This document shows positions 632 to 31,454 of a DNA stretch of 64,000 nt, in pieces. A program made the position numbers and the translations under genes. How positions within the stretch are numbered: the first letter of the stretch is position 1; every line of letters starts with the position of its first letter. This DNA comes from Granulicoccus phenolivorans DSM 17626 = NBRC 107789 = JCM 15570 (GTDB lineage Bacteria; Actinomycetota; Actinomycetes; Propionibacteriales; Propionibacteriaceae). The DNA lies in assembly GCF_000423085.1 (NCBI RefSeq), contig NZ_AUHH01000009.1, forward strand, positions 1 to 64,000. Reading direction: 5' to 3'. The notes under the pieces were generated by a model. The model made no database searches and had not been told where the DNA came from. It was given only the letters and a program-made list of their open reading frames with translations.

Positions 632-1138
632 TCAGCCCACCAGGCGGGGCAGGATCAGGGTCAGGTGCCGGTCGATCAGGTCGGCGCATTGGGCCGCGGC
701 GGCCGGGCCGCGACGGTAGGGGTCGGGAATGTCACCGAGCGGGTCCGCCCGGGGCCGCATCCGATGCACCCGGTCGATCAGGTCCGGGCCGGTGGCGTCC
801 TCGACCCGTACCGCTGCCCCGGTGAACTGATCCAGGGTGAAGGTACGCCGGGCCAGCTCCGGCCAGTCCTCGATGATCCACCGGCGGTGCCGGGCGCTGG
901 CGGTGAGGATCAGATCCGGCTGGCGGGCCAGCACCGGATCGAGTTGCCGGGAGATGAACCCGTCGGGATCACCGCCGCGCCGGGTCACCTGCTCGGCCAT
1001 CTCGGGATACATCGGATCCCCGACCATGGCGTCGGTGCCGGCGCTGCTGACGGTCAGCTCGGGGGCCAACTGGGCGGCGCGGCGTTCGGCGTACGGGGAC
1101 CGGCAGATGTTTCCGGTGCACACGAACATCAGATGCAT
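632..1138 (-). CDS. Low-molecular-weight protein tyrosine phosphatase (Wzb/Ptp type)
   Basis: This 168-residue cytoplasmic phosphatase has the usual length of the family. The active-site P-loop CTGNICRS is at residues 7-14 (nucleophile Cys7, Arg13), and the general-acid DPY motif is at 139-141. In polysaccharide loci such enzymes dephosphorylate the tyrosine cluster of the Wzc-type autokinase, and one is encoded 1.2 kb away at 2326. The ATG overlaps the stop of the PqqD-like gene upstream (TGATG), so the two are translationally coupled. It is the last gene of a three-gene minus-strand operon with the nucleotidyltransferase and PqqD-like genes. Met4 is an alternative start. Confident on family; the substrate is inferred from context. 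Confidence 0.93.
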   Translation of the reverse strand: MHLMFVCTGNICRSPYAERRAAQLAPELTVSSAGTDAMVGDPMYPEMAEQVTRRGGDPDGFISRQLDPVLARQPDLILTASARHRRWIIEDWPELARRTFTLDQFTGAAVRVEDATGPDLIDRVHRMRPRADPLGDIPDPYRRGPAAAAQCADLIDRHLTLILPRLVG

Positions 1139-1410
1139 CAGGTCACCTCCAGCAGGCCGGTGCGGACGAGGTCATCGAGGAAGTGTGTCACATCTGCCGC
1201 GATCGCGTCGGGAGCCAGCCCCACCGCGCCGGCAACCTCGGCGGTCACCTCATCGGCGGTGGCGCCGTCGACGAAACAGTCCCAGATCACCCCGGCCGAA
1301 CCCACCAGACGCATCGCCGGTCCATCGGGGAGCCGGGCCACGAAGCGGTCCCCGTCGTGCTCGACATCGGCGTACGCCCGGCGGCGCAGGCGGCGTGCTG
1401 CCTCAGTCAT
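1138..1410 (-). CDS. PqqD-like (RRE-fold) small protein
   Basis: A 90-residue protein resembling PqqD/RRE peptide-recognition domains: an N-terminal beta-rich half (LRRRAYADV, a GxxxRLVGSAGVIWDCF core) followed by a helical DEVTAEV...LDDLVRTGLLEV tail. PqqD domains present a precursor peptide or protein to a modifying enzyme. Its sequence pattern is mirrored in the C-terminal domain of the HPr-kinase-like protein at 30405-31454 (RRxAYAD, LxG..R.LAG, LV..G.LE). Its ATG lies 8 bp inside the upstream nucleotidyltransferase gene, and its stop overlaps the phosphatase start. No precursor peptide gene is visible nearby. The fold assignment is from pattern recognition only; the molecular target is unknown. 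Confidence 0.8.
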   Translation of the reverse strand: MTEAARRLRRRAYADVEHDGDRFVARLPDGPAMRLVGSAGVIWDCFVDGATADEVTAEVAGAVGLAPDAIAADVTHFLDDLVRTGLLEVT

Positions 1411-2239
1411 GGCGGTGCCTCAGTTCCCGCCAGGCCCGCCGATACCGCTCCTGCCAGGCGTACGCCCGGTCGCGGCGGCTGAGCCGGTGCCCGGCGGCCA
1501 TCTGCAGATGCTCGAAATTCGGGACCAGCGCCCGCACCAGGATCCCCGCCTTGCCGAGCAGGTGGGGGTGCGCCTCGACCCGCCCGCGCAGTTCGTCCCA
1601 GCGGGTGCTGCTCGGGTCGGCGAAGGTACGCCACAGCCGGTACGCCCGGTGCTCGCGGAACTGCTCCAGATCCCCCAGGGCACTGGCCAGCGCGATTTCG
1701 GCGTCCAGCCGCTCGGCCAGCTGCCGGATCCGGGCCCGCTCGGCACTGTCGGCCTGCTCCCAGGCGATCCCGACATCCCGGGACCCGCCGGAGCGGGCGG
1801 CATGCACCAGCAGGATCAGCCGCTGCGCGGTCTGTCCGGGAACCGCGCAGGCATATCCGCCCAGGTCGACCGGATGCCGGTCGGCCCACAGCACCTCGAA
1901 GGTGTCCGGGGCCTCCAGACCGGGGAACGAGCGATGCACGTCGACGTAGCCGAAGACCTCGCTCCAGTAGGTCGCGGCGTGCTCGAAGGCCGAGCCGGTC
2001 GCGAAACGGGTCCGCAGGCTCCACTCGGTGCCGGCCAGGGCACGAATGAAACGTCGCAAATGGGCCGGCCGGACCAGCACATCGGCGTCCGAACTCGGGG
2101 GCCGTTGGGCGGCCAGTTCCGGATCCAGGGCCGGCCCCTTGATGTGCAATAAGTCGGCGCCGGATTCGTCGGCCAGGAACTGCATGGCGGCATGGGTCAT
2201 CCGGACCCGCACCGGCAGGGGCAACGACAGCTCAGGCAC
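1403..2239 (-). CDS. Putative nucleotidyltransferase (NTP_transf_5-like)
   Basis: A 278-residue protein with the hallmark of the uncharacterised nucleotidyltransferase family PF14907. Near residues 33-56 it has LLHIKGPAL followed by SSDADVLVRPAHL, the KG...D.D.LV pattern of a nucleotidyltransferase active site. No signal peptide or membrane segment is seen. The start is GTG at 2239, first gene of the operon with the PqqD-like and LMW-PTP genes, and divergent from the BY-kinase gene (86-bp gap). The same family occurs beside HPr-kinase-like and PqqD-like genes in some lasso-peptide and HPr-rel-A clusters, which is why this trio deserves attention. Substrate unknown. Confidence 0.75.
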   Translation of the reverse strand: MPELSLPLPVRVRMTHAAMQFLADESGADLLHIKGPALDPELAAQRPPSSDADVLVRPAHLRRFIRALAGTEWSLRTRFATGSAFEHAATYWSEVFGYVDVHRSFPGLEAPDTFEVLWADRHPVDLGGYACAVPGQTAQRLILLVHAARSGGSRDVGIAWEQADSAERARIRQLAERLDAEIALASALGDLEQFREHRAYRLWRTFADPSSTRWDELRGRVEAHPHLLGKAGILVRALVPNFEHLQMAAGHRLSRRDRAYAWQERYRRAWRELRHRHD

Positions 2240-2325
2240 AGGGCTGATGCTAGCTGTCAGTGCCAGTTCCGGGACATTTCCTGTTTAGAATGCAGCGACC
2301 CTGAAAAGACCGAGCGGGAGCTGGC

Positions 2326-4029
2326 GTGACCATACTCGATTTCGTACGGATGACCCGAGCACATTTGATGCTCCTTGTGGTCGCCGTACTGCTGGGCCTT
2401 GCGGGCGGATTTGTCTGGACGCAAATGCAGCCGACCCTTTATCAGAGCTCCGCGACCGGCCTGATCACCTCCGGCTCGGCCGCCTCGATGGGGGAGGCCT
2501 TCTCCAACCAGACCCTCGGGGTGCAGCGCGCGCAGACCTATGTGCCCCTGGTCACCAGCGGCATCGTGGCCGACCGGGTGGCCGAGGAACTCGGCATCCC
2601 CGAGGGTGGGGCCGCGGTACGCGACAGCGCGACGGCGGCGGTGGTCGACGGGTCGCCGATGCTCCGGATCACCGCGACCGCTTCCCAGCCGGGCCGGGCC
2701 CGGGACCTCGCCGACGCCTTCGTCCGGGCCACCGCCGAGGAGGCCGCCAAGCTGGAGACCGGCGGGAATCCCGACCGGGAACCGGTGATCAAGCTGGTCC
2801 CGCTGGAGGACGCGACCCTGCCGACGTCTCCGGTCTCGCCGAACCTGTGGGTGAACCTGGGCATCGGTGCGTTGGTCGGCCTGGTCGTGGGGTACCTGAT
2901 CGCCTTCCTGCGCAAGAGTGTCGACAACCGGATCCGGCACGTCTCCGATATCGAGGAACTGATCGGTTCCCGCGCCCTCGGCGTGATCCCGAAGGCCTCC
3001 GAGATCGGCAAACAGCGCCAGCGCGGCACCACCGACCTCGGCGTCGCCTCCGAGGCGATGCGCCAACTGCGGACCAACCTGCGCTATGTCGACGTGGACA
3101 ATCCGCCCCAGTCGATCGTGGTGACCAGCTCCCACGCCGGCGAGGGCAAATCGACCATCGCCTCCAACCTGGCCCGGGTGATGGCCGCCGCGGGCCAGCC
3201 GGTGATCCTGATCGACTGCGACCTGCGTCGCCCGATGCAGGCCCGGATCTTCAATCTCGACGGCGATGTCGGGCTGACCCAAGTGCTGGCCGGGGAGGTC
3301 GCGATCGAGGACGCCCTGGTCGCCACCGAGCGCCGGCTGCTGCAGGTGCTGCCGGCCGGTCGGATTCCGCCGAACCCGAGCGAGCTGCTCGGCTCGAAGC
3401 GGATGGCTGCGCTGATCAAGGCGCTGTCCCGGGACAATCTGGTGATCCTGGACGCCCCGCCCATCCTGCCGGTGACCGATGCCGGACTGCTCACCGCCGC
3501 CTCGGACGGGGCGCTGCTGGTGATTCGGGTCGGGCGTACGTTCAAGGAGCACGTCAAGATGGCGAACAAGGTGCTCGAGCAGGTGAACGGCCGGTTGCTC
3601 GGGACCGTACTCAACGTTGTGCCGCAGCGTCAGCTCGGATCGGTCATGTACGGGTACGGCTACCGGACCTACAAGAACGACTACTACTACCGCAACCGCA
3701 AGCATGCGATGACCGAAGAGGTCCCGATGCTGATGGTGGAGGACACCGCGGAGTTCGAGGATTCGGTGCTGCGCTCCACCCAGCCGATGCCGATGCGCGA
3801 TGACACGACGTCGGTGCTCGGTCCGGCCCGGGCCATCAGCACCGAACAGTTCACCGAGCCCGAGATCACCCGGACCCAGCCGGCCGTCCCGGCCGGGGTG
3901 GGCGTGGAGGTGGCGAGTCAGCCGGAGAACCCGCCGCGGGCCCGGGCGCCCAAGGCCTCCCAGTACAGCCGCAACGGTGACGACTCCCGCGGTGGCGGGG
4001 ACAAGGAACGCCCGCGCCGGGCGCTGTGA
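2326..4029 (+). CDS. Polysaccharide co-polymerase / BY-type tyrosine autokinase (Wzc/CpsCD-like)
   Basis: A 567-residue fusion of a Wzz chain-length domain with a cytoplasmic BY-kinase. Transmembrane segments lie at about 13-31 and 174-195, with an extracytoplasmic loop between. The kinase has Walker A GEGKST (272-277), Walker A' ILIDCDLRRP (294-303) and Walker B LVILDAPP (372-379). A tyrosine-rich stretch MYGYGYRTYKNDYYY at 441-455 is the likely autophosphorylation cluster. It is followed by a disordered, charged tail of about 110 residues, longer than usual. GTG start with GGGAG upstream; a possible -10 (TAGAAT) lies at 2286-2291. It overlaps the acyltransferase gene (GTGA). It should control polymer length together with the LMW-PTP at 632-1138. 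Confidence 0.93.
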   Translation: MTILDFVRMTRAHLMLLVVAVLLGLAGGFVWTQMQPTLYQSSATGLITSGSAASMGEAFSNQTLGVQRAQTYVPLVTSGIVADRVAEELGIPEGGAAVRDSATAAVVDGSPMLRITATASQPGRARDLADAFVRATAEEAAKLETGGNPDREPVIKLVPLEDATLPTSPVSPNLWVNLGIGALVGLVVGYLIAFLRKSVDNRIRHVSDIEELIGSRALGVIPKASEIGKQRQRGTTDLGVASEAMRQLRTNLRYVDVDNPPQSIVVTSSHAGEGKSTIASNLARVMAAAGQPVILIDCDLRRPMQARIFNLDGDVGLTQVLAGEVAIEDALVATERRLLQVLPAGRIPPNPSELLGSKRMAALIKALSRDNLVILDAPPILPVTDAGLLTAASDGALLVIRVGRTFKEHVKMANKVLEQVNGRLLGTVLNVVPQRQLGSVMYGYGYRTYKNDYYYRNRKHAMTEEVPMLMVEDTAEFEDSVLRSTQPMPMRDDTTSVLGPARAISTEQFTEPEITRTQPAVPAGVGVEVASQPENPPRARAPKASQYSRNGDDSRGGGDKERPRRAL

Positions 4030-5102
4030 CCACTCCGCCGGCGGACACTGCGCGGCGCCCCACCCAAGGGGCCACGGCGACCGGGCCGACCCGGGACCAG
4101 TCGCTGGATCTGGCCCGGGGCTGGGCGATGCTCCTGGTCGTCTTCGGCCATGTCCTGCGCGGTGTGTTCACCGCCGGGCTGGTGCCAGCGGAGCTGGCCG
4201 GCGGGCTGCGGGCGGTCGATCGGGTGGTCTATCTGACCCACCTGCCGGTGTTCGCCTGGGTGTCCGGGCTGCTGATGACCCGCCCGGTGCGGCAGCGGGG
4301 CGCTCGGGCGTACCTGCTGCCCCGACTCGCGGATTTCGCGTACCTCTATCTGCTGTGGACCTTGCTGCAGGGCGGGCTGGAGGTGGCCACGTCATCGGTG
4401 AAGAACAATCCGGTCACCTGGCTGGACGTGGTCAATATCTTCGTGCCGATCGGGCATCTGTGGTTCCTGCCGACGCTCGCCCTGGGGACCGTGCTCGGGG
4501 TTTCGGCGCTGTCGGGCCGGCCCCGGCTGGTGGCCGGGGTCAGCATCGTGGTCGGGCTGGCCGCCTGGGGACATGAGGACCAGATCATGTTCGCCGGCGG
4601 GGCGCTGCTGCCGTTCTTCGTCCTCGGCGCGCTGTGCGGGTACGAGCGCTGGGCCCGGGTGGCCGGTCGGCTCCTGGATCGTCCGGCCGTGGCCGTCGCG
4701 GTGCTCGTGGCCGCGGCCGGGTTGATCGTGGTGCTCAGTCCGTGGGCGTTGCCCCCGACCAGTACCGGTCCGGCGTACGGGCCCACGTCGGTGCTTCTCG
4801 GCGTGCTCTGTTCGGTTCTGGCTGTGCTGGTGGTGCTGCTGCTGGCCGGAGCGATCGCCCGACGGTGGCAGCTCGACTGGTTCGCCCGGCTGGGCCGCGA
4901 CTCACTCCCGATCTATCTGGCTCATATCGCTTTTGCCGCCGGGGTCCGGGTCGTGCTGCTCCGGCTGGGCGTCACCGATGTGTGGCTGCACCTGGTCGCC
5001 GGAACGGCGGCCGGGATCGGCGGCCCCCTGCTGCTGACCACCCTGCTCGGGAAGCCGTTGTGGTGGCTGTTCCGCCGGCCCCGCTGGGGGAGTGCTCAGT
5101 AG
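4026..5102 (+). CDS. Acyltransferase 3 family integral membrane protein
   Basis: A 358-residue polytopic membrane protein of the acyltransferase 3 (OatA/NodX-like) family. It has the N-terminal signature SLDLARGWAMLLVVFGHVLRG, where the His of FGH is the expected catalytic residue, and about ten hydrophobic segments to the end. These enzymes O-acetylate or otherwise acylate extracellular sugars. The GTG overlaps the last codons of the BY-kinase gene, so it is co-translated with it. The 3' end overlaps by 7 bp the convergent sugar transferase gene. Probably decorates the exported polysaccharide; the acyl donor and site cannot be read from the sequence. Confidence 0.88.
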   Translation: MTTPPADTARRPTQGATATGPTRDQSLDLARGWAMLLVVFGHVLRGVFTAGLVPAELAGGLRAVDRVVYLTHLPVFAWVSGLLMTRPVRQRGARAYLLPRLADFAYLYLLWTLLQGGLEVATSSVKNNPVTWLDVVNIFVPIGHLWFLPTLALGTVLGVSALSGRPRLVAGVSIVVGLAAWGHEDQIMFAGGALLPFFVLGALCGYERWARVAGRLLDRPAVAVAVLVAAAGLIVVLSPWALPPTSTGPAYGPTSVLLGVLCSVLAVLVVLLLAGAIARRWQLDWFARLGRDSLPIYLAHIAFAAGVRVVLLRLGVTDVWLHLVAGTAAGIGGPLLLTTLLGKPLWWLFRRPRWGSAQ

Positions 5103-6544
5103 GCGCCGCGACCGATGATGACCGCATGCAGGGTCCGGCCGAGGATGCTCAGGTCCTGCAGCATTGACCAGTTGTCCACGTAGTACAGGTCGAGACGGAC
5201 GGTGTCCTCCCAGGACAGGTCGCTGCGACCAGAGACCTGCCACAGCCCGGTCAGGCCGGGACGCACCTGCAGCCGACGCCGCATGTCCTCGTCGTAGCGG
5301 GCCACCTGGTCCGGGAGCGCCGGACGCGGCCCGATCAGGCTCATCTCGCCGCGCAGGACGTTGAACAGCTGCGGCAACTCATCCAGCGAATACCGGCGGA
5401 GGAACCGGCCGACCCGGGTGATCCGGGGATCGCCGCTCATCTTGAACAGAACTCCGGACCCCTCGTTGTGCTGCTGGAGCTCGCGGACCCGAAGATGGGC
5501 ATCCGGGACCATGGACCGGAATTTGAAACAGGAGAACAGCTTGCCCTCGCGGCCCACACGGATCTGCCGGTACAGCACCGGGCCGCCGTCGCCGAGCTTG
5601 ACCGCGATCGCCACGGCAACCAGCACCCACCATCCCAGCAGCAGGCCGAGCAGCACCACGGTCAGATCGAAGGCTCGCTTGAACCCCCGGTTGGCCGCAA
5701 CCGATCCGGGCCGCTCCACGTGCATCAGGGGCAGACCGGCAACCGGTTGGATCCGGACCCGGTCGGCGGAGATGTCGCTCAGCCCGGGGACCAGGATCAC
5801 GTCGACGTTCTTGTCCTCCAACTCCCAGACCAGGCGACGGAAGTCGGCCGATTCGGTGAAGGCTCCCTCGGTGAACAGGACCGAGTCGCAGCGCACTGCC
5901 TCGATCCCGGCGACGATGTCGTCGAGGGTCCCCGAGACCGGGACGGCCGCGTTGGTCGGTTCGGTCCGCGCCGGCAGGATCTGGGCCCGGACCTGGTAGC
6001 CGAGCCAGGACTCTCGATCCAGCACCTTGATCAGGTCGGCAACCCGCTGCGGCTGCCCGACCACGACCACCTGGTTCGCGAAAAAACCGCGCTCCCGCAG
6101 GCGATGGATCACCCGGCGGATCACCACTCGACCGACCAGCAGCAGCGGGATCCCGATCAGGAAGAGCAGCGCGAAGTAGCCGCGGGACAGCGGCACCTGG
6201 AAGAGGTACGCCCAGACGCTGAGCAGACTCGCGGTGAGCAGGCCGGCCTGGAGCACGATGGTGTACTCCTTGGTCCCGGTTCCGCGGGTGTCGGCGCGAT
6301 AGGCGCCGCGCAACAGTGAGATGAGCACCCACGTCAGCGTGACCGGAACCACCAGTTGCTCGGCCAGTTCCACCACGTTGGTGGCATTGCTCGGCCAGCG
6401 CACGCCGGTGCGCCCGTAGACGGCGGCCAGATTGGCCAGCGCGATCAGCAGCCCGTCGATGGTGAGCAGGGCCAGTGACTCCAGCCTGCCGCGGTGGTGC
6501 CGCGTGAGTCGTGGACTACCTCTGCGTGCTTGGGTGTTGCTCAT
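5096..6544 (-). CDS. Polyprenyl-phosphate sugar-1-phosphate transferase (priming, WcaJ/CpsE type)
   Basis: A 482-residue initiating transferase that would load the first sugar-phosphate onto undecaprenyl phosphate. The N-terminal half has about four membrane spans and a Rossmann-like CoA-binding-type region. Then comes the catalytic domain with KRAFDLTVVLLGL, GPVLYRQIRVG, FKFRSM, LPQLFNVLRGEMSLIGPRPALP and RPGLTGLWQVSGRS. This is the full-length family layout. ATG with a strong GGAGGGGGACC ribosome site. The start lies 29 bp inside the 3' end of the double-glycosyltransferase gene, and it is the last gene of a four-gene minus operon (10901 to 5096) with GT4, Wzy-like and GT4-GT4 genes. Confidence 0.93.
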   Translation of the reverse strand: MSNTQARRGSPRLTRHHRGRLESLALLTIDGLLIALANLAAVYGRTGVRWPSNATNVVELAEQLVVPVTLTWVLISLLRGAYRADTRGTGTKEYTIVLQAGLLTASLLSVWAYLFQVPLSRGYFALLFLIGIPLLLVGRVVIRRVIHRLRERGFFANQVVVVGQPQRVADLIKVLDRESWLGYQVRAQILPARTEPTNAAVPVSGTLDDIVAGIEAVRCDSVLFTEGAFTESADFRRLVWELEDKNVDVILVPGLSDISADRVRIQPVAGLPLMHVERPGSVAANRGFKRAFDLTVVLLGLLLGWWVLVAVAIAVKLGDGGPVLYRQIRVGREGKLFSCFKFRSMVPDAHLRVRELQQHNEGSGVLFKMSGDPRITRVGRFLRRYSLDELPQLFNVLRGEMSLIGPRPALPDQVARYDEDMRRRLQVRPGLTGLWQVSGRSDLSWEDTVRLDLYYVDNWSMLQDLSILGRTLHAVIIGRGAY

Positions 6545-8684
6545 GGTCCCCCTCCAGGAGCGCTGTCACCTGCCCGACGAAATGAGTTCGGTCGAACATG
6601 GTGGCGTGCTGTCTGATCCGCTCCGGTGACCAGTGAGTCCCCCGACTCACCTGAATGCCTCTCAGTACGGAATCAGCTGTTGCCTCGTCGCACAATACAC
6701 CAGTGCATCCGTCAATGATGGTGTCGAGAAAGCCTCCCGCACGCAACGCGATGGTGGGCCGGCCGAAGGAGGCCGCCTCCAGCGGCGTGAGTCCGTAGTC
6801 CTCGAAGCTCATCGCGATCAGCGCCTCGGCGTGCGCGTACAGCCAGCGCAGCTGCGCGTCATCGACCCGGCCGGCGAGCGTGACGTTGTCCGGCAGGTCC
6901 CGACGTAGGGTCCCTTCGTACGGGCCGGTGCCGACCACCACCAGACGCTCGGCCGGCATGGCCCGGAACGCGTCGATCACCACTTGGACGTTCTTGTACG
7001 GCAGCAGCCGGGACACCACCAGGAAGTAGCCGGGCTCGATCCCGGCGAACGGCTCCTGGGGGCCACTCGGATCGATGCTGTGCGGCGCGGGGACCACGGT
7101 CGCGCGGCGGTGATAGAACCGCTCGATCCGGTCGCGGACCACGGTGGAGTTGGCCAGGTAGGTATCGACCCGGCTCGCCGCGCGCTGGTCCCAGCGGCGC
7201 AGTCCCGGACGCAGGGCTGCCAACAGCCACCCCTTCGGGGAGCGGTGGAGCGGACCACCGAGGTATTCCTCGCTGAGATACAGGAAGCGGGCCGGGGAGT
7301 GGCAGTACGCGATCCGCCGGCCCCGGGTGGGAAACCCGTGGGACCACGCCGAGGTGGAGGCGATCACCACCTGCGCGTCGATCCGGTGGGTCGCGGCGGC
7401 CAGGCCCAGCAGCGGGAGGGCGGCGCGGTAGTTGCGTCGCAGCGCACCGAACCGGTTCAGCCAGCTGGGGCGGACGTCGATCGCGGCGAACTCCGGAAAG
7501 GTGTCGGCGGGTTCGTACAGCGTGGTGTAGAGGGGGGCACCCGGGAAGGCCTCGGCCAGGGTCAGCGCGACCCGCTCGGCCCCGCCCCGCTGAGTGAGAT
7601 AGTCGTGCGCGATGGCGATCGGCGCCGGCAGTACCCGGGGCAGCAGTTCGGCGAAGCGGGCCCGACCCGCCTCGGGGGAGTAGTGCTGTTCCCACCGGGT
7701 CCGGCCCTGCGGGGTCGGGCCCGACGCTGCGGCTGCGGTGATGGCCCGGGCCAGCGCGACCGGGTCGCCGGCCGGAACCACCCACGGATGGTCGGGGCCG
7801 GCCACCTCGGGCAGCGCCCCGGCATCGCTGATCACCACCGGCACGCCGTGGCCGAGCGCTTCGGCGACGACCAGGCCGAAGGACTCCTCGGCGCGGGACG
7901 GGACGACCAGGACGTCCACCTCGGCGAAGAAGTCCGCCGGATTCACCCAACCGAGCCGGTCCACCGGGTCGAGGTCGGCCAACTCCGCCTCGACGGTACG
8001 CCGTTGCTCCGGGTCGGTGAATCTGCTCTCGCCGCCGAGTCGGGCCAGCCACCGTCCGGGCTGGTCGCGTTGCAACTGGCGCACCGCCCGGGCGTACTCG
8101 ACGATGCCCTTCTCCACCGCCAGGCGGCCCAGGAAGCCGACCCGCACCGGGCCCGGGGGCTGCTGCCGCACCGTGGGGGCCGGGATCGGCTCGGTCCAGT
8201 TCGCCAGCACGTCCGCGCCGGGAAACCGGTCCGCCAGGAACTGGGACGGCACCACGGTCGCCCGGGCCCCGAGCCGGGCCAGCCGGGCGGCGGGCAGCTG
8301 TCGGGGGCTGGGCATTCGGTGCAGATGCACGATCCGGTCGCGGTGTCCGGCGGTGGCCAGAGCCGGGACGAGTCCGTTGCACCACAGCACCCCGCGACGC
8401 TCGGTGGCGTCCCAGCGACGCAGTCCGCGCAGGTATTGGGGCCGGGTTCGGGCGGTGATCTCGACGGTCGCGAACCCGCGGTCGAGCGCCTGCTCGACGA
8501 CCTCGCGGGGGTGACTGGGGCCGACGATGGTGACTTGATGGCCGAGCTCGCGCGCCGCCTCGGCGAGCTCGAACAGCATCACCTCGCCGCCGCCGATGTC
8601 GCCGTTGTTTGTTGCGAAGGTCAGGTTTGTGGCGAATGTCAGGTTGGTGGCGAAGGTCTGGCTCGTGGCGGAGGGGAGGCTCAC
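6516..8684 (-). CDS. Fusion of two GT4-type glycosyltransferase domains
   Basis: A 722-residue protein made of two complete GT-B glycosyltransferases. Domain 1 (about 20-350) starts NNGDIGGGEVMLFELAEAAR and carries an EESFGLVVAEALGHGVPVV acceptor/donor motif. Domain 2 (about 355-720) restarts with PIAIAHDYLTQRGGAERVAL and has SFEDYGLTPLEAASFGRPTI. Each would normally be a separate gene of about 350-380 residues. I place the start at GTG 8684 because it overlaps the upstream stop as GTGA. The first 24 residues are an 18-bp tandem repeat that copies the first beta strand (TFATN). Neighbours are Wzy-like and priming transferase genes. Probably adds two sugars in succession; specificity unknown. 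Confidence 0.88.
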   Translation of the reverse strand: MSLPSATSQTFATNLTFATNLTFATNNGDIGGGEVMLFELAEAARELGHQVTIVGPSHPREVVEQALDRGFATVEITARTRPQYLRGLRRWDATERRGVLWCNGLVPALATAGHRDRIVHLHRMPSPRQLPAARLARLGARATVVPSQFLADRFPGADVLANWTEPIPAPTVRQQPPGPVRVGFLGRLAVEKGIVEYARAVRQLQRDQPGRWLARLGGESRFTDPEQRRTVEAELADLDPVDRLGWVNPADFFAEVDVLVVPSRAEESFGLVVAEALGHGVPVVISDAGALPEVAGPDHPWVVPAGDPVALARAITAAAASGPTPQGRTRWEQHYSPEAGRARFAELLPRVLPAPIAIAHDYLTQRGGAERVALTLAEAFPGAPLYTTLYEPADTFPEFAAIDVRPSWLNRFGALRRNYRAALPLLGLAAATHRIDAQVVIASTSAWSHGFPTRGRRIAYCHSPARFLYLSEEYLGGPLHRSPKGWLLAALRPGLRRWDQRAASRVDTYLANSTVVRDRIERFYHRRATVVPAPHSIDPSGPQEPFAGIEPGYFLVVSRLLPYKNVQVVIDAFRAMPAERLVVVGTGPYEGTLRRDLPDNVTLAGRVDDAQLRWLYAHAEALIAMSFEDYGLTPLEAASFGRPTIALRAGGFLDTIIDGCTGVLCDEATADSVLRGIQVSRGTHWSPERIRQHATMFDRTHFVGQVTALLEGDHEQHPSTQR
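8611..8682 (-). repeat. 18-bp tandem repeat at the 5' end of the GT4-GT4 gene
   Basis: Four head-to-tail 18-bp units at 8611-8628, 8629-8646, 8647-8664 and 8665-8682 (plus-strand form GTGGCGAAGGTCTGGCTC and variants). The first three are close matches; the unit at the start codon has diverged. The repeat is in frame and encodes SLPSAT-SQTFAT-NLTFAT-NLTFAT, directly before NNGDIGGG. The normal first beta strand of the GT4 domain has therefore been copied several times without breaking the frame. Confidence 0.9.
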
Positions 8685-9832
8685 AGCTTTTCCCAGCGAT
8701 TGCGGTAGTGCGCCGGGATCAGGTCGGGCTCCTCGCGTTGCAGGATCAGATGCCGCATCGCGAACCCGAGCACCACCGCGGCCTGCAGGGTGAGAAGGGC
8801 CTCGCCGATGTTCGTCGCACAGGTCAGCAGCACGATGATGGCGACCTCGAGCCAGGGGGAGCGCTGCTTGCCCAGCCACAGCAGCCGCCAGAACAGGATT
8901 ACCAACAGCGCCATCAGACAGACCAGGGCGATCCAGCCGCCCTCGGCGCGCAGCGCGAGATAGCTGGAGTGGAAGAACAGGCGGACGTTCTCGCTGAGTT
9001 GGACCTTGGCGGTGCCCGGGCCGGTGCCGTACACCGGGGACTGCGCGACGATGATCTGCTCCTGGATCAGGATCCGGTCGCGCAGCAGATCGCTGCCGGT
9101 GCGTTCGGCCCAGGGTCCGATCCGGATCCAGGTGTCGGGCAGGTTTGCGATGCCGTAGATCAGCCCGCCCAGCACCCCGGTACCCAGAATCGGATGGATT
9201 CGGTGCCCCAGAATCAGCCAGGCATAGCCCAGCCCGAGGGCCAGCAGTGAGGTGCGGGAGAAGGTGGCGACCACTGCCACCACCACGATGATCTGCAGGA
9301 TCACCCGCCAGCGGCCCGGGGGAATCTGGGACAGCGCCACCGCGCCCAGGGTGGTGAAGATCAACCCGGCGGCATTGGGGTCCATGATGAAGCCCACGAG
9401 CCGGTTCGGGTAGGGGGCGGTGGTGATGAACACCAGTCCCCACACCAGGTTGATCGCCAGCCCGGCGAACAGGCCCCAGGCAGCCGACTTGAGGTGGACG
9501 CGGCCCGAGGCGATGAACATCGCGGTCAGGGCGTACAACACCAGGTGCAGCACCCGGCGCGTCCCGTCCACGTGGTTGAGGAAGCCCGAGACGGCGATGA
9601 CGCCGACCAGGCCCACCAGTAACACCGGGAAGAACAGGGGGACCTTGCGGTCCGGACGTCGGGTGAGCGCCAGCAGTGCCAACAGACCGAAGGCGATCTC
9701 GTTCAGCGGCGCGACGACCAGGGCGACCCCGTCGAACACCAGCAGCGCGAACAGGATGAAGTCCAGGCGCCGGATCTGGTTGGCCTTCTCGGTCTCCTCG
9801 CCGAGGTCCCACGCCAGGGGTGCTTTGGCCAT
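8681..9832 (-). CDS. O-antigen ligase / Wzy-like polysaccharide polymerase
   Basis: A 383-residue polytopic membrane protein with about eleven hydrophobic spans. Its Wzy_C-type periplasmic loop contains VYGTGPGTAKVQL and LFFHSSYLALRAEGG, typical of O-antigen ligase/polymerase family members. I chose ATG 9832 (MAKAPLAW), one base after the upstream stop, rather than an in-frame ATG at 9901 that lies within the upstream gene. It is co-transcribed with the GT4 gene upstream and the double GT gene downstream (GTGA overlap). In a locus with a priming transferase and a Wzc-like kinase it is best read as the polymerase. Ligase activity cannot be excluded. Confidence 0.85.
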   Translation of the reverse strand: MAKAPLAWDLGEETEKANQIRRLDFILFALLVFDGVALVVAPLNEIAFGLLALLALTRRPDRKVPLFFPVLLVGLVGVIAVSGFLNHVDGTRRVLHLVLYALTAMFIASGRVHLKSAAWGLFAGLAINLVWGLVFITTAPYPNRLVGFIMDPNAAGLIFTTLGAVALSQIPPGRWRVILQIIVVVAVVATFSRTSLLALGLGYAWLILGHRIHPILGTGVLGGLIYGIANLPDTWIRIGPWAERTGSDLLRDRILIQEQIIVAQSPVYGTGPGTAKVQLSENVRLFFHSSYLALRAEGGWIALVCLMALLVILFWRLLWLGKQRSPWLEVAIIVLLTCATNIGEALLTLQAAVVLGFAMRHLILQREEPDLIPAHYRNRWEKL

Positions 9833-9833
9833 C

Positions 9834-10901
9834 TCAGTGTGCTCCTGCGTAGCTGATGGGACCGACCGGTCGGTGCAGTACGCGGTCATAGACACCGGCA
9901 ATGTCGGCGCCCATCTCGGCGACGGTGGGCCACTCGGTCAGGACGGGACGGGCGGACAGGTCCTGTCCCTGGGTCCGGATCGCGGCGGCAACCGCGCCCG
10001 GATCGCCCGGGTCGACCGGACACCGGTCGGGCACGATCTCGGGATTCCCACCGACCGGGGAAGCAACCACCCCGACCCCGCGCACCGCGGCATCGAGCAG
10101 GGAGTACGAGCAGTTCTCCCAGACCGACAGCTGCACCAGCACATCGGTTCGGGCGAGCAGCTCGGCGGCGTCGACGTGTCCGGGCCACGCCACCTGCAGT
10201 CCGAGCTCGGCCGCCAGCGCCTTCAGTTCACCCGCCAGCGGGCCGGTGCCGGCGATGGTCAGGGTCGCGCCCGGTTCGTCGGCCAGCTGGGCGTACGCGC
10301 GCAGCAACTGGTCGATCCGCTTCTCCGGCGCCAGCCGGGCGATCGAGGCGACGCGCAGCCCGGGCTGTGGGGTGGCGGGCACCGGGTCGATTCCGTTGCG
10401 GATCAGCGTGATCGGTGTCCGCGGATGCCACTTGGCCTGCATCGCCTGCCGGGTTGCGGCCGAGACCGCGATCAGTGCGGCGAACCGGGCGGTGCGGGCC
10501 TGATGGGCCCGGGCCATCACCGTGGCCCGAGTGCGGGAGCCGTGATAGACGAGGTCGTCGGCGGCGATCCCGTGTTCGGTGCTGACCCGGACGCCGGGCG
10601 TACGCACCAGGGCGGTGACCACGTCGGCGTACGCCAGATGCGAATGCACCACGGCGGGGGCCAACGCGTCGACGGCATGCTGCAGACTCGCCCGGGACGC
10701 CCGCAGGCCGTGCTCGGGACCGAACTCGGCCTCGATCGTCGGTACCCCGAGTTCCTGAAGCTGCCCCAGCAGGGGGCCGGCCGGCGCCAGGACCGCGAGC
10801 CGATACCCGGGAATCCCGACGCGCGCCACGTCCAGCGCGTGCCGCGCGACCCCGCCCAGGGCACTGGTCGGCAGTACCCACAACGTCCATGGCTGCGCCA
10901 T
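9834..10901 (-). CDS. GT4 family glycosyltransferase
   Basis: A 355-residue GT-B glycosyltransferase with no membrane segment. The N-terminal domain starts LWVLPTSALGGVARHALDVAR and has HSHLAYADVV and STEHG. The C-terminal nucleotide-sugar domain has LIRNGIDPV, IARLAPEKRIDQLL, TIAGTGPL and, near 280-300, VLVQLSVWENCSYSLLDAAV. The glutamate region is E-N-C-S-Y-S-L-L-D, a slight departure from the usual ExFGxxxxEA. ATG at 10901 is the first codon of the four-gene minus operon, divergent from the GT2 gene at 11016. Confidence 0.88.
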   Translation of the reverse strand: MAQPWTLWVLPTSALGGVARHALDVARVGIPGYRLAVLAPAGPLLGQLQELGVPTIEAEFGPEHGLRASRASLQHAVDALAPAVVHSHLAYADVVTALVRTPGVRVSTEHGIAADDLVYHGSRTRATVMARAHQARTARFAALIAVSAATRQAMQAKWHPRTPITLIRNGIDPVPATPQPGLRVASIARLAPEKRIDQLLRAYAQLADEPGATLTIAGTGPLAGELKALAAELGLQVAWPGHVDAAELLARTDVLVQLSVWENCSYSLLDAAVRGVGVVASPVGGNPEIVPDRCPVDPGDPGAVAAAIRTQGQDLSARPVLTEWPTVAEMGADIAGVYDRVLHRPVGPISYAGAH

Positions 10902-10939
10902 GCGTACCCCCCGGCAGGTCTGTGCGACAGTAATCCTGA

Positions 10940-10956
10940 TCGGGACATTATCCCGA
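10940..10956. promoter_or_regulatory. Inverted repeat in a divergent intergenic region
   Basis: TCGGGA-CATTA-TCCCGA is a perfect 6-bp inverted repeat between two divergent glycosyltransferase genes (starts at 10901 and 11016). A related string CCGGGACATTTCC occurs at 2269-2281 between the divergent nucleotidyltransferase and BY-kinase genes. It could be an operator; there is no direct support beyond symmetry and position. Confidence 0.4.
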
Positions 10957-11015
10957 GCGCATTCGGCTCAGGAAATCAGCCGCAACAGGAACCGAAAAGG
11001 GGTGGCGGAACAGTC

Positions 11016-11999
11016 GTGCCGAAGCAACCGAAAGTATCCATCATTGTTCCGACCTTTCGCGGGGAACATCGGCTGCCGGCCCTGCTCGACGCGTTGGCTG
11101 GTCAGGAGTTCGACGGCGATTTCGAGGTCATCGTGGTGCTGGATGGGCCCTCGGAGGCGGTCGAGCGTGTCCTGGCCGGGTATGCCGATCGGCTGCCGGT
11201 ACGCCGGCTGGTGCAGGATCCGCAGCGCGGGGTGGCCGCCGCCCTGAATCGGGGGTACGCCGCGGCCGCCGGGCGGGTGCTGATCCGCTGCGACGACGAC
11301 CTCACCCCCGGGCCCGGCTGGCTGGCCGGGCATCTCGCCCAGCACACCGGGGACACCCCGGTCGGGGTGATCTCGGTCACCCGCGACGTGTTCGATCCGG
11401 TCAACCGCTATGTCGAGGTGTACGCCCGCCCGGCGAACCAGCAGTCCCGGGCCCGGGCGTACGCACTGGCCCCGGAGGAGCGCTGGACGCTGTGGGCGGC
11501 CTGCGCCTCGATCGACCGGGCGGCCTGGGCGGCGGCCGGCGGATTCGACGAGAGCTTCGGCTACGGGGAGGACTCCGAACTGGGCTACCGGCTGCACCGG
11601 GCCGGGGTCACCATGCTGGTCGACCCGGCCCTGGAGGTGGCTCACCGCGGACCGATCCACGAGGTGGCCCGGCGGGTGCCGCGGGCGTACCTGGCCGGGG
11701 AGTCCCGCCGCCGGTTCGCCGAACGCCACCCCGAGGCCGCCCGGCTGCCGCAGCGCCCGCGGACTCCCTGGGAGGTCCTGGTCGCGGTCACCGCCCGGGT
11801 GCTGTCGACCGAGGCGGCCTGCGCCCGGGCCGGGCGTGCCCTGGACCCGGTGATTCGGCGGGTGCCGGCCCCGGTGGCGCGCAAGCTGATCGCCCTGGCC
11901 GTCGAGGCGGCCGGCCGGGCGGGCGCCCGGGCCGGTGCGGTCAGCACTGGCTGGACCACGCAGAAGCTGCGGGAGATCGCCGCGGAGCAGACCCGATGA
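11016..11999 (+). CDS. GT2 family glycosyltransferase
   Basis: A 327-residue GT-A enzyme: VSIIVPTFRGEHRLPALLDAL, EVIVVLDGPSEAV and the divalent-metal motif RCDDDLTPGPGW near residues 88-99. Then comes GGFDESFGYGEDSELGYRLHRAG (190s), the ED motif expected for the catalytic base. The C-terminal 80 residues are basic and helical, possibly membrane-associated. I chose GTG 11016 (PKQPKVSIIVP) because a much longer open frame upstream is only the antisense shadow of the divergent GT4 gene. It overlaps the following membrane-protein gene by ATGA. Donor sugar unknown. Confidence 0.9.
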   Translation: MPKQPKVSIIVPTFRGEHRLPALLDALAGQEFDGDFEVIVVLDGPSEAVERVLAGYADRLPVRRLVQDPQRGVAAALNRGYAAAAGRVLIRCDDDLTPGPGWLAGHLAQHTGDTPVGVISVTRDVFDPVNRYVEVYARPANQQSRARAYALAPEERWTLWAACASIDRAAWAAAGGFDESFGYGEDSELGYRLHRAGVTMLVDPALEVAHRGPIHEVARRVPRAYLAGESRRRFAERHPEAARLPQRPRTPWEVLVAVTARVLSTEAACARAGRALDPVIRRVPAPVARKLIALAVEAAGRAGARAGAVSTGWTTQKLREIAAEQTR

Positions 12000-16973: not shown

Positions 16974-16977
16974 CGGT

Positions 16978-19873: not shown

Positions 19874-20875
19874 ATGTGGTGGAGTGAGCGAGTGCTGGCA
19901 GCCGCGCGGGCAACCAAACATCAGGGGCTGCTCGCCACCCGTGATCTGGGTCAACTCCGCCAGGGAATTCGCGCGCGCACCGATCCGAAACTGCGCCGCG
20001 AGCGGCAGCTGGCAGTGGCTGGATTGCACCTTCCGGAGTTGCCGGAACGCTCACGGCAGGAAGGCAGTGTGTGGGCGGTCACGATGGTTCGCAACGAGGC
20101 GGACGTCATCGGGGACACTGTGCAGCACCTGCTGGATCAAGGCGTGGCGGGCATTCTGGTGGCCGACAATGGATCGGTCGACGGCACGGCACAGGTGATT
20201 CGAGGCCTGAACGATGCGCGGGTGTATCTGGTCGACGACCGGGAGCCCGCCTTCTTCCAAGCGGCCAAGCTGACCGAACTCGCGCGTAGGGCCGCCGGTG
20301 CCGGGGCGGACTGGATCGTCCCGTTCGATGGGGACGAATTCTGGTTCGGGCTCGAGGGCAGCCTGATCGACTCGTTGCGGTCCCTCGCCAGCCCGATCGC
20401 GGTCGCGCACGTCCACAACGCGTTTCCCTCGCCGGAAGGGGGTGGCTGGCGTCTGGACACCAGCCCGGCCCGGCTGCAGAAGGTGGCTTTCCGCTGGCAT
20501 CGGTTGGCATACCTCCACCACGGAAATCATGCAGTGTTTCGGCCCGGGCGGCCGACCGAGCGGCTTCGGGTATTGCATACGCCGTGGCGGTCGTTCGAGC
20601 AGTTCGAGCGCAAGATCCGGTTGGGGGCTGCGGCGATGGATCTTGCTCGCGGGCGGCGTACGGACTCTGACACCGGCGGCGACCACTGGCGGGATCTGGC
20701 CCTGCTGGACGACGCAGACCTGCGCACGGCCTGGAGCGACCTGCTCAACGGGCGGGCGCCGGAGATCATGGAATGGATTCCCCGGGGAGAGCTCCGGGAG
20801 TGTCACTGGCGCCATGCCAGGCAGTGGGCCGAGATCTGGTCGCAGGTGAGCGACGAGGGTGCGACCCGGAAGTAG
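19874..20875 (+). CDS. GT2-like glycosyltransferase (Glyco_tranf_2_4 type)
   Basis: A 333-residue protein with VWAVTMVRNEADVIGDTVQHLLDQG, GILVADNGSVDGT and WIVPFDGDEFW (a D-x-D-E metal motif near residue 155). This is the layout of the Glyco_tranf_2_4 group, which often follows an N-terminal helical region as here (residues 1-70). I chose ATG 19874, preceded by GGATGG; ATG 19856 and 19799 are in-frame alternatives. It is single and ends 14 bp from the convergent GT gene at 20890. Confidence 0.82.
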   Translation: MWWSERVLAAARATKHQGLLATRDLGQLRQGIRARTDPKLRRERQLAVAGLHLPELPERSRQEGSVWAVTMVRNEADVIGDTVQHLLDQGVAGILVADNGSVDGTAQVIRGLNDARVYLVDDREPAFFQAAKLTELARRAAGAGADWIVPFDGDEFWFGLEGSLIDSLRSLASPIAVAHVHNAFPSPEGGGWRLDTSPARLQKVAFRWHRLAYLHHGNHAVFRPGRPTERLRVLHTPWRSFEQFERKIRLGAAAMDLARGRRTDSDTGGDHWRDLALLDDADLRTAWSDLLNGRAPEIMEWIPRGELRECHWRHARQWAEIWSQVSDEGATRK

Positions 20876-20889
20876 GGGCGCTCCTCGGA

Positions 20890-21636
20890 TCAGCGGGGCA
20901 GGTGCTGTCGGAGGCGGTGACGCGCCAGCCGGACCCCCTCGACGGCACGGACCAGGTGTTCCCACCAGCGTGTGCCTTCCAGGGGCGTCAGGATTCGGTC
21001 CGCCTCGGCCTGCTCCTCGGCGCGCAACTTCTGGATCTCGGGAGTCTGGGTGGTCGACCCCATTTCGGTCTCGAAGCGGACCCCGAGGATCGCACCCGGA
21101 GGTCGACGCTGCGCCATGATCAACCAGTCGTCGCCGCCCCAGATTCGCATCGACTCCGGGATCGGGGAGTAATCCCGGCGGCGCAGGCACATGAACACCC
21201 CGAAGCCGAATGAGGTGGTGCTGGCGCGGGCCAGCGTCACCCGTGGCGTACCGCTGACCTCGGCGAATGCCGAACGATCCGGTCCGATGACGCCGAAGAG
21301 GCCGCGGGACAGCGCCTTTCCCACCACGTCGAAAGCTGCGGCATCGAACAGTACGTCGTCGTTCACGATCGCCAGGTATTCCCCGCGCGCTTCGCGAGCG
21401 CCGAGATTCCAGGCCGGATTGACGAAGATGTTTCGTTCCTGCTGCAGCACGCGCACCTTGGGGGAATCCCAGTGCAGCGGGTCGGGCGCATTGTTGATGA
21501 CGAGCACTTCGAGAACACGAGGATGTCCCGCGCAGGTATCGACGACCTGAGGCAGGTGTTCCGAGCGCTGCAGGGTGGGAATGAGCACCGAGAACCGTCC
21601 GGTTGTCGTCTCGTCGATCCTCATTTCGTCAGCCAT
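20890..21636 (-). CDS. GT2-like glycosyltransferase
   Basis: A short (248-residue) GT-A protein: RFSVLIPTLQRSEHLPQVV, VLVINNAPDPLH, NPAWNLGARE, LAIVNDDVLFD (N-D-D in place of DXD, near residue 95), and a late IWGGDDWLIMAQRR (G-G-D-D) motif. It lacks a C-terminal extension. The ATG sits 8 bp inside the end of the rmlC-rmlD fusion gene, so it is translated together with the dTDP-rhamnose enzymes. A rhamnosyltransferase role is inferred from that coupling. Confidence 0.82.
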   Translation of the reverse strand: MADEMRIDETTTGRFSVLIPTLQRSEHLPQVVDTCAGHPRVLEVLVINNAPDPLHWDSPKVRVLQQERNIFVNPAWNLGAREARGEYLAIVNDDVLFDAAAFDVVGKALSRGLFGVIGPDRSAFAEVSGTPRVTLARASTTSFGFGVFMCLRRRDYSPIPESMRIWGGDDWLIMAQRRPPGAILGVRFETEMGSTTQTPEIQKLRAEEQAEADRILTPLEGTRWWEHLVRAVEGVRLARHRLRQHLPR

Positions 21637-22968
21637 GGTGACGAAATCCGGTCGCGCCCAACTTCGCCAGGCTGAGCGTGGAGTGCCGCGGCCGAGCGGC
21701 CATCGCCTTGCCCCGGGCGTACTCCTCGGTGCTGGTCGGCGAAACCATGGCGGGGTCGACGCCGGCCTCGGCGTACACCCGGCGAGCAATAGCGAACCAG
21801 GTCTCGGTCGGGCCGTCGTCGGTGACGTTGTAGGTGCCGTACGCCGCCTCGGTGTCCAGCAGATGCTTGATCGCCCCGGCCAGGGTCGAGGTGTGGGTGA
21901 GTCGGCCGTGCTGATCGTCGACCACCGACGGGGCAATCCCACGCGCGGCCAGGCTCTGCATCGTGGCGACGAAGTTCGCGCCATCGCCGACCACCCAGGA
22001 GGTGCGCACCAGGTAGTGCTGCGGCCAGGTCATCACCAGTTCGTCGGCGGCGGCCTTGGTCACCCCGTAGAACCCGAGGGGGGAGAACGGCTCGTCCTCG
22101 GTGTGCTCGGGCTGGGTTCCGTCGAAGACGTAGTCGCTGGACACGTGCACCAGCCGGGCCCGGTGCTCCCGGGCGATCCCGACCAGCTTGCGGACCGCGG
22201 TCACGTTGCTCGCCCAACTCGCGGCTCGTTCGGTCTCGGCCCGATCCACGGCGGTGTACGCCGCGGCGTTGATGATCGTGCCGACCCCGGTGAAGTCGTG
22301 GGTGTCGGGGTGCTGCAGGTCGAAGTCGGGCCGGGCCAGCAGGGTCGCGTCGGGGAACAGCGGCTGCAGAGCTTTGCCGAGCTGTCCGTTCGCGCCGATG
22401 ATGACGGTACGCCGGGGCGCGAACGGGGTGACTTCGGCCAGCCGCGGATGGGCCCGGTCGGCCTCGGACAGGATGGCCTGCTCCAGCGGGATCGGCCAGG
22501 CGATCGCGGCGGTCTCGTCGGCCAGGTTCAGGAAGGTGTAGGACGCTTTCGCCGCGGCACTCCAGTGGTCGTTGACCAGGTAGGCGTACCCGGTGCCCGG
22601 CTCGAGGGTCTGGTACGCGTTCCCGACCCCGCGCGGCACGAACACCGCGGTCTCCGGCCCCAGCTCCACCGTCACGGTCTGCCCGAAGGAGTCCCCGGCG
22701 CGCAGGTCGACCCAGGCGCCGAAGATCCGCCCGTTGGTGACCGAGACGAACTTGTCCCACGGCTCGGCATGGATGCCGCGGGTGACCCCGACCTGTTCGT
22801 TGTGCGCGACGTTCTGCTGCACGGGGGCGAAGTCGGGCAGGCCGAGCGCGGTCATCTTGGCCCGCTGCCAGTTCTCCTTGAACCAGCCGCGCGCGTCGCC
22901 GTGGACCGGCAGGTCCACGATCAACAGCCCGGGAATCGCGGTCTCGCGGACCGCCAGGGCGCCGGCCA

Positions 22969-22969
<1 letters not shown>
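21629..22969 (-). CDS. rmlCD: Bifunctional dTDP-4-dehydrorhamnose 3,5-epimerase / reductase (RmlC-RmlD fusion)
   Basis: A 446-residue fusion for the last two steps of dTDP-L-rhamnose synthesis. Residues about 1-183 are an RmlC cupin (GDARGWFKENWQ, VTRGIHAEPWDKFVSV with the catalytic His, VPRGVGNAYQ, YLVNDHW). From about 185 on is RmlD, an extended SDR with IIGANGQLG, INAAAYTAVDRAE, VSSDYVFDG and FYGVTKAAAD (Y-x-x-x-K near 300). The fusion is known in some Actinobacteria. The ATG overlaps the rmlB stop by one base. It forms a minus operon rmlB, rmlCD, GT2. Confidence 0.95.
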
Positions 22970-24900
<1,931 letters not shown>

Positions 24901-24908
<8 letters not shown>

Positions 24909-29319: not shown

Positions 29320-29326
29320 CCCTTGT

Positions 29327-30317: not shown

Positions 30318-30351
30318 CGCGCCGATTTTTGGTTTGGGAGCCGACGCGGGA

Positions 30352-30367
30352 GGATCGGAGCCGATCC
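30352..30367. promoter_or_regulatory. Perfect inverted repeat GGATCGG-AG-CCGATCC
   Basis: A 7-bp inverted repeat with a 2-nt centre, 37 bp before the GTG of the HPr-kinase-like gene. It shares a 14-bp core with 16009-16022 upstream of the other DXD glycosyltransferase. Candidate operator. Confidence 0.5.
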
Positions 30368-30404
30368 CGGAACGGGGTTCCGGACTCTGGGGGGAGAGTA
30401 CGCA

Positions 30405-31454
30405 GTGAGCCAGGATGCGCCACGGGTGAAGATTCTGCGGGAGGTTTTCGAACTGCCCGATCCGGACTGGGCCGACTCCTGGTCGCGCTGCCGGACCGAG
30501 GATCCGGTCACCGCGGAACTGCCGGAGTCCGCCCGGGCGTACTCCTGGACCTCGGCGGCCACGATCGACGCGATCACCGAGGCGGCCGGCGACCTGTTGA
30601 TGTTCCACGCCGCCGGGGTGAGCGATGCCGAGGGCCGAGTGGCGGCCCTGGTCGCGCCCAGCGGAACCGGGAAGAGCACCGCTTCGATCGCGCTGTGCAC
30701 CGACCGGTACGGGTATGTCACCGACGAGACGGTGGCGGTCAATCCGGACGGGAGCGTCCTGCCGTTCCCCAAGCCGATCGCGCTGCACCAGAGCAGCACC
30801 GATTCCCAGGAGTTCAAGGATCACCTCAGCCCCGATGCGCTGGGCCTGCGCCATGCCCCGGCCCGGCTGCGGTTGGCCGGCCTGATCGTGCTGAAACGGC
30901 GGACCGAGCCCGGACCGGTGCAGGTGGAATTGCTGAGCACGGCGTACGGGGTGGGCGCGGTGATCGAGAACATGTCGGCGGTCAGCCAACTCACCGATCC
31001 GCTGGCGCACCTGGTGACCACCATCCAGGCCTGCGGCGGCGTCCACGAGGTCAGCTACAGCGATGCCGCCGACCTGGCCGGGCCGGTGCAGCAGGCACTC
31101 CAGGCGGCTCCGCAGTCGATCGCCTGGGTGCACCATCCGGGGACCGCATCGCCGCAGCCCGATGCGGGCGACCCTGAGGCGGGGAAGTGGCGGCGCAGCG
31201 CGTACGCCGACGCGATCGAGACCGAGGACACGCTGTTGTTGCTGCAGGGCCAGCAGTTCCGGGCGTTGGCCGGGATCGCGGCGACGTTGTGGCTGGCCGC
31301 GGGCGCGCCCCGCACCGAATCCGAACTTGTCACCGCCCTGGTCGAGGCGCACGGTCCGCACCCCGATGCGGCGGAGCTGACCCGCTCGGTGTTGGTCGAA
31401 CTCGTCGCCGCCGGCGTCCTGGAGACGCTGCCCTCCGAAGTGCGGGCATTGTAG
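30405..31454 (+). CDS. HPr-kinase-like P-loop protein with C-terminal PqqD-like domain
   Basis: A 349-residue protein in two parts. Residues about 1-255 resemble HPr kinase/phosphorylase-like proteins: LLMFHAAGV, Walker A VAPSGTGKSTAS (about 82-93), GYVTDETVAV (the catalytic-Asp region of HprK) and PFPKPIALHQ. Residues about 262-349 (WRRSAYADAIETEDTLLLL to LVAAGVLETL) follow the same pattern as the stand-alone PqqD-like protein at 1138-1410. HprK-like kinases with PqqD and NTP_transf_5 partners are known from lasso-peptide tailoring and HPr-rel-A systems; no HPr is needed there. GTG start with GGGGGGAGAG upstream. The phosphorylated target is unknown. Confidence 0.78.
   Translation: MSQDAPRVKILREVFELPDPDWADSWSRCRTEDPVTAELPESARAYSWTSAATIDAITEAAGDLLMFHAAGVSDAEGRVAALVAPSGTGKSTASIALCTDRYGYVTDETVAVNPDGSVLPFPKPIALHQSSTDSQEFKDHLSPDALGLRHAPARLRLAGLIVLKRRTEPGPVQVELLSTAYGVGAVIENMSAVSQLTDPLAHLVTTIQACGGVHEVSYSDAADLAGPVQQALQAAPQSIAWVHHPGTASPQPDAGDPEAGKWRRSAYADAIETEDTLLLLQGQQFRALAGIAATLWLAAGAPRTESELVTALVEAHGPHPDAAELTRSVLVELVAAGVLETLPSEVRAL

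Follow-up and report, generated by a model that had tools for sequence, protein, structure and literature searches.

Closest described systems

The nearest described counterparts of the genes studied here lie in lasso-peptide clusters, in which an HprK-like kinase targets a serine of a ribosomal precursor and stands beside a nucleotidyltransferase (NTase) of the NTP_transf_5 family and a PqqD/RRE protein. PadeK of the paeninodin cluster and PsmK of the pseudomycoidin cluster phosphorylate the C-terminal serine of the lasso precursor, and PsmN, the annotated NTase of the latter cluster, puts one or two hexoses on that phosphoserine (PMC9266682). The same three families are encoded in a 64 kb stretch of Granulicoccus phenolivorans DSM 17626, hereafter the window. 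It opens contig 7, which is 171,779 bases long and one of 74 contigs that make up the 4.1 Mb genome. We report that these enzymes almost certainly belong together with an N-terminal signal of the twin-arginine translocation (Tat) type carried by otherwise unrelated proteins with predicted export, here called clients.

Unlike the lasso precursors, the clients are proteins of 150-600 residues with predicted Tat export, often many per genome, and the kinase belongs to a distinct subfamily with its own fused PqqD domain. In agreement with an earlier note on this DNA, no B2 transglutaminase-like leader peptidase (PF13471) was matched anywhere in the genome, and a scan of the window genes at 632-35219 turned up no Asn-synthetase-like cyclase, the rest of the genome not having been searched for it. 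The HPr-rel-A system supplies the best NCBIfam match of the kinase (TIGR04352) and one of the PqqD matches (TIGR04353), both far under their equivalog cut-offs (38.6 bits against 200 and 16.1 against 35, respectively).

A different likeness is to the sortase/LPXTG and exosortase/PEP-CTERM systems, where likewise a short signal is spread over many unrelated surface proteins and follows dedicated enzymes from genome to genome. The resemblance extends to the clients, which include choice-of-anchor G and TQXA/thioester-domain proteins. In contrast to those systems, the signal here is N-terminal and of the Tat type, a C-terminal transmembrane stretch was found in 0/39 clients, and the enzymes are a kinase and an NTase with no transpeptidase. 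LCP-mediated glycosylation in Actinobacteria (Actinomyces GspA) also joins polysaccharide to an exported protein; we know of no signal motif, kinase or NTase in that process.

An N-terminal signal that tracks the kinase

A scan of named genomes gave 141 kinase loci, of which 80 were retained for neighbourhood work; these are practically all actinobacterial, one being a metagenome-bin contig labelled Armatimonadota. Clustering of the neighbours at kinase loci revealed small secreted proteins with a twin-arginine signal containing AAW[STA]xP, and the N-terminal motif common to the Tat-type clients reads RRxxxxxAAW[STA]xP...P..[A/S]AS. A six-frame scan of the 80 loci returned 69 signal matches, including a handful of evident false ones, in 47 loci, with 32 at most 1 kb from the kinase and 44 at most 2 kb. 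Ranked by gene order, 9.6% of the direct kinase neighbours are signal proteins, but only about 2% of the genes from the third position outwards (P = 4e-5). A compact arrangement was seen in Intrasporangium oryzae (L102), where a client, a kinase-PqqD gene, an NTase gene and a PqqD gene form a unit amid housekeeping genes; two further loci (L130 and L079) hold a client and a kinase-PqqD gene alone, in a conserved housekeeping neighbourhood.

Phyletic distribution was followed in two samples, 58 relatives and 297 genomes of the class. Among the relatives, a signal profile of 42 columns (A2) matched all seven genomes that have the kinase and not one of the remaining 51 (Fisher 3e-9); four of the seven had supplied rows for the profile, the other three and all negatives had not. 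Within the class, the signal profile matched 12/13 kinase genomes and 2/284 others (Fisher 1.5e-18). The thirteenth kinase genome (G268) has a variant signal beside the kinase gene, ending ...AAWVAPAIAVATAAPALAVS, with serine at +17 (counted from the tryptophan as position 0). A generic Tat signal was rejected as an explanation, 283 of the 297 class genomes having no match to the profile. Within one genus (g32) the signal occurs in 7/7 kinase-positive and 0/8 kinase-negative genomes, which argues against mere shared ancestry.

The association also allowed a prediction: if the signal depends on the enzymes, a kinase genome that has no client near the kinase would be expected to have clients at other places. 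This was the case in 23 of 27 such genomes, with 1 to 37 copies. The Microbacteriaceae genome of locus L101 (G359) has 37 proteins with an AWxP signal, several grouped in tandem. Clients are mostly encoded away from the polysaccharide locus, and this holds for the two that we located in G. phenolivorans by pattern and profile search. One (C53:6633-7370) is a protein of 245 residues from a family of kinase-adjacent clients in Agromyces, Knoellia and Intrasporangium, and the other (C7:111755-113473) is a choice-of-anchor G protein (E 8e-35). The small lasso-type precursor for which the earlier note had proposed a search was not found in the window; the substrate class that we propose instead consists of these larger Tat-type proteins encoded elsewhere in the genome.

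Anatomy of the signal and of its clients

From the twin arginines through the terminal serine, the alignment of the 130 unique signals needs no gaps. R-9, R-8, W0 and P+3 are essentially invariant, most of them being demanded by the search pattern, and A-1 reaches 94%. Proline stands at +12 in 122/130 signals, and position +17 is serine in 121 and threonine in 4; the regular expression included neither position, and a mild bias comes from the distant clients, which were found with a profile that has the serine column. Position +17 carries 3.8 bits of information, and position +18 only 1.1. A twin arginine, a hydrophobic stretch and an AxA cut site predict Tat export, and since AxA occupies +13 to +15, cleavage is predicted directly before A16-S17. 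No Pfam or NCBIfam model covered the signal in the scans made here.

Past the signal, mean column identity over 68 clients drops to 9%, so that the signal is their only common part. The domains that could be recognised are of the choice-of-anchor G (3), RCC1-like (5) and thioester/TQXA (1) types, and an LPxTG-like motif was present in 1/41 clients. Large PhoX-like Tat proteins (about 670 residues) are encoded near the kinase gene in two loci (L104:11844-13859 and L127:11312-13336); their long signals carry TAW[ST]xP at a different spacing from the arginines.

These features bear on whether the same system might perform another chemistry, with the AWxP signal recognised but a residue of the mature domain modified, or a nucleotide or lipid-type phosphodiester installed, the serine then serving cleavage. 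Signal peptidase I genes near the kinase (in L074, L085, L137 and 16 other loci, at most 300 bp away in 12) would suit a role of the serine in cleavage, and these peptidases are perhaps dedicated to the clients; the fold matches of the NTase, described below, likewise leave room for several transferred groups. The mature domains share no conserved residue, however, and in the eight signals whose proline is not at +12, and whose cut site has hence probably moved, Ser+17 is kept in seven. We therefore regard modification at another residue or with another group as rather unlikely, and modification of the signal serine itself as the better account.

Co-occurrence of kinase, NTase and PqqD

Kinase, NTase and PqqD co-occur far more often than by chance. 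Seven of the 58 relatives have the kinase (G000, G008, G022, G023, G033, G044 and G047), and all seven have an NTP_transf_5 protein; in the class, at E < 1e-40, the kinase is found in 13 genomes, the NTase in 12 and both in 11 (Fisher 3e-17), the remaining two kinase genomes having NTase matches weaker than this threshold. The earlier note had staked its idea of a system on such co-occurrence and on an HprK fold of the kinase, and both are borne out by the data given here and in the next section. Not all PF14907 matches could be treated as one set: those of G005, G015 and G029 resemble other nucleotidyltransferases in sequence and context, and those of G024 and G038 were set aside as lasso-type clusters, judged by eye, with B2-like and PqqD genes of their own.

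Where no NTase gene lies near the kinase, one is encoded elsewhere in 27 of 30 genomes (E < 1e-49). The three genomes without it (G345, G346 and G370) are three of the four kinase genomes in which clients were not detected, the fourth falling outside the 30-genome check; signal and NTase therefore vary together even among kinase-positive genomes. In two metagenome-assembled genomes of Brooklawnia/Propionibacterium (L061 and L063) and in L137, the kinase-PqqD gene is retained while NTase and AWxP proteins are undetectable in the genome. G022 has two polysaccharide loci (L043-L044 and L045), each with an NTase-PqqD pair and a BY-kinase (bacterial tyrosine kinase), the kinase-PqqD gene being seen at only one of them.

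The near-constant company of the NTase matters for a reading as Tat quality control, in which phosphorylation of the signal would time the export of folded clients and leave no lasting modification. The signals are of the Tat type, the enzymes are presumably cytoplasmic, and classical HprK enzymes are regulatory kinases, all of which would fit such export licensing. It would have no need of an NTase, though, which accompanies the kinase almost without exception, and the serine predicted to be modified would remain in the mature protein. We consider this reading very improbable and favour a lasting modification of the client.

Within 10 kb of the kinase, the 80 loci contain a BY-kinase in 55 cases (31 times at most 300 bp away), a stand-alone PqqD gene in 44, an NTase in 31, a tyrosine phosphatase in 29, signal peptidase I in 19 and a sugar transferase in 18. 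These counts are lower bounds, because the simple gene caller is incomplete for loci of lower G+C content. The BY-kinase and phosphatase counts, together with the divergent arrangement of the NTase operon and the BY-kinase gene in the window, could suggest polymer control, in which kinase and NTase would modify the Wzz/BY-kinase or a glycosyltransferase and the Tat proteins would merely be co-inherited matrix proteins. Against this, units L102, L079 and L130 have no polysaccharide gene nearby, so that such genes are frequent but not obligatory neighbours, and polymer control explains neither why signal and kinase go together inside a genus nor why a fixed serine closes the signal. Kinase units without a BY-kinase exist, and this protein was rejected as an obligatory partner. 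Control of polymer assembly is thus quite improbable. The suggestion of the earlier note that the enzymes may phosphorylate or nucleotidylate a protein fits our data; the likely substrates, however, are Tat-exported surface proteins and not factors of polymer assembly.

The enzymes of the window

All three open reading frames and their family assignments in the earlier note were confirmed (Table 1). The stand-alone PqqD protein (P0001) scores over the PF05402 cut-off, and the profile of its homologues matches the lasso leader-binding proteins TbiB1 (E 3e-12) and TfuB1. The NTase (P0002) reaches 37.6 bits with PF14907, above the gathering cut-off of 31.2, and retains the acidic metal-binding residues of that family; K34-G35, D51, D53, D100 and H102 are invariant in the alignment. 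Its AlphaFold2 model (predicted local distance difference test, pLDDT, 88.0) matches the nucleotidyltransferases MenT1, LnuA and ANT(2'') and also FKRP, a ribitol-phosphate transferase.

The kinase (P0003, 30405-31454, plus strand) matches HprK_rel_A over residues 57-133. Used alone against PDB sequences, its profile finds mainly the P-loops of ATP-binding cassette (ABC) transporters, while the C-terminal part matches the PqqD-family protein 9x8z and TbiB1. Across 51 kinase homologues, conservation is complete or almost complete at H68, the P-loop G89-K90, D107-E108 and K123-P124. The AlphaFold2 model (mean pLDDT 93.5, predicted template modelling score 0.90) finds phosphoenolpyruvate carboxykinases (PEPCKs) as its best PDB fold matches in Foldseek (probability about 1.0, E 4e-5), with a query template modelling score of only 0.3-0.35. 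The PEPCK superfamily also includes HprK, and as modelled P0003 has the PEPCK-like P-loop kinase fold of the HprK/PEP-carboxykinase-like superfamily. Conservation of the catalytic-type residues would be compatible with serine kinase activity on a protein. The earlier note, which had correctly called it an HprK-like P-loop protein, had missed its C-terminal PqqD domain. This domain spans about residues 261-345; in profile-profile comparison it matches the stand-alone PqqD family with 97.8% probability, and among 19 C-termini of kinase homologues, 13 match PF05402.

Proposed modification of the clients

In the mechanism that we propose, the PqqD domains would bind the N-terminal signal as a leader peptide, as PqqD domains do in systems for ribosomally synthesized and post-translationally modified peptides. 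The kinase would phosphorylate the near-invariant serine 17 residues past the tryptophan, and the NTase may then put a sugar-type group (hexose or sugar-phosphate) on that phosphoserine. Tat can export folded, modified proteins, and the folded client would leave by this route and be cut at AxA, which would place the decorated serine roughly at position +2 of the mature protein. Finally, enzymes such as the LCP proteins could lengthen the exposed phosphosugar or link it to polysaccharide; in G023 (L033) the kinase gene is overlapped by an LCP gene, and members of an LCP-like family were seen in 11 loci. The decoration may hold the clients to envelope polysaccharide, because the system lies in or beside polysaccharide loci and the clients have no other anchor.

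The steps differ in strength. Co-occurrence, adjacency, conservation of the signal, folds and intact catalytic residues are observed, and leader binding, the acceptor, the sugar step and anchoring are what we infer from them. That kinase-PqqD, NTase with its partner PqqD, and clients form one protein-modification and sorting system acting as proposed in full is, in our judgement, reasonably probable. Conservation makes Ser+17 the probable acceptor; for addition of a sugar by the NTase, argued by analogy, we would put the chances slightly below even, and anchoring to polysaccharide is a tentative suggestion. Equally tentative is the most specific form of the proposal, a new N-terminal sorting route in which phosphorylation and subsequent glycosylation of the signal serine both take place in the cytoplasm, the phosphosugar becomes the point of polysaccharide attachment, and clients end up anchored by an N-terminal phosphodiester-linked glycan.

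Several observations weigh against the proposal. Four of the 27 kinase genomes mentioned above have no detectable clients, and the two class genomes with a signal but no kinase encode one signal protein each, in one case without the serine. The acceptor residue is derived from conservation, and a serine near the Tat cut could serve signal peptidase. The polysaccharide linkage is argued from neighbourhood, and around some units polysaccharide genes are missing. The sugar step leans on a single lasso precedent, which the review treats as open, leaving it possible that a host glycosyltransferase adds the hexose of pseudomycoidin (PMC9266682).

The polysaccharide locus and other features of the window

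The phosphatase gene and the PqqD gene overlap by one base and the PqqD and NTase genes overlap each other, in a single operon; the Wzz/BY-kinase gene, from which this operon diverges, is the first gene of the polysaccharide locus. Glycosyltransferases are also found in the core of the locus (Pfam). Coordinates of the features are listed in Table 1.

Table 1. Features identified in the window, in order of position.
Feature	Position	Strand	Basis
Low-molecular-weight tyrosine phosphatase (Wzb-like)	632-1138	-	PF01451, E 4e-19
Stand-alone PqqD/RRE protein, partner of the NTase (P0001)	1138-1410	-	PF05402, E 7e-8; homologue profile matches TbiB1 and TfuB1
NTP_transf_5 nucleotidyltransferase, acidic triad D51, D53, D100 intact (P0002)	1403-2239	-	PF14907; alignment; AlphaFold2 fold
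Wzz/BY-kinase (CpsD-type) chain-length regulator	2326-4029	+	CbiA/AAA_31 domains
Polysaccharide locus core	5096-24908		Pfam scan of window genes
Undecaprenyl-phosphate sugar transferase	5096-6544		Pfam
O-antigen-ligase-like protein	8681-9832		Pfam
ABC exporter	16978-18876		Pfam
rmlA-D	21629-24908		Pfam
HprK-like kinase domain (P0003)	30405-31139	+	TIGR04352, E 7e-10; invariant columns; modelled PEPCK/HprK fold
C-terminal PqqD/RRE domain of the kinase (P0003)	31185-31439	+	Profile-profile comparison; PF05402 matches in homologues

A second sugar-related cluster (43954-51559), judged by looking at the sequence, contains glycosyltransferases and flippase-like, UDP-galactopyranose-mutase-like and GtrA-like proteins, as well as a large membrane protein. 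Three tandem paralogous secreted proteins (39917-42051, minus strand) share the exact C-terminal ending GGKLAKTG[A/S/L], which resembles a sortase motif (LAXTG) but lacks the transmembrane tail that normally goes with it. Directly downstream of the phosphatase gene, at the contig end (1-527), lies an array of 2.8 copies of a 194-base tandem repeat, inside which a 19-base repeat is nested; this array is probably the reason why the assembly breaks there.

Meaning for the Actinobacteria

Our literature search for the system or its signal returned nothing relevant; it covered few subscription papers, so that an earlier description may exist. The system offers a testable substrate for the HprK-related kinase, NTP_transf_5 and stand-alone PqqD families, which are widely annotated without a function outside lasso peptides. 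If the chemistry is true, a surface-protein modification so far undescribed would operate in many Actinobacteria, among them Arthrobacter, Agromyces, Rathayibacter, Nocardioidaceae and Propionibacteriaceae, and a single cell could have as many as tens of proteins so modified. The finding points to an unrecognised chemical marking of proteins before export in some soil-type bacteria, which may concern up to 37 unrelated proteins in one genome.

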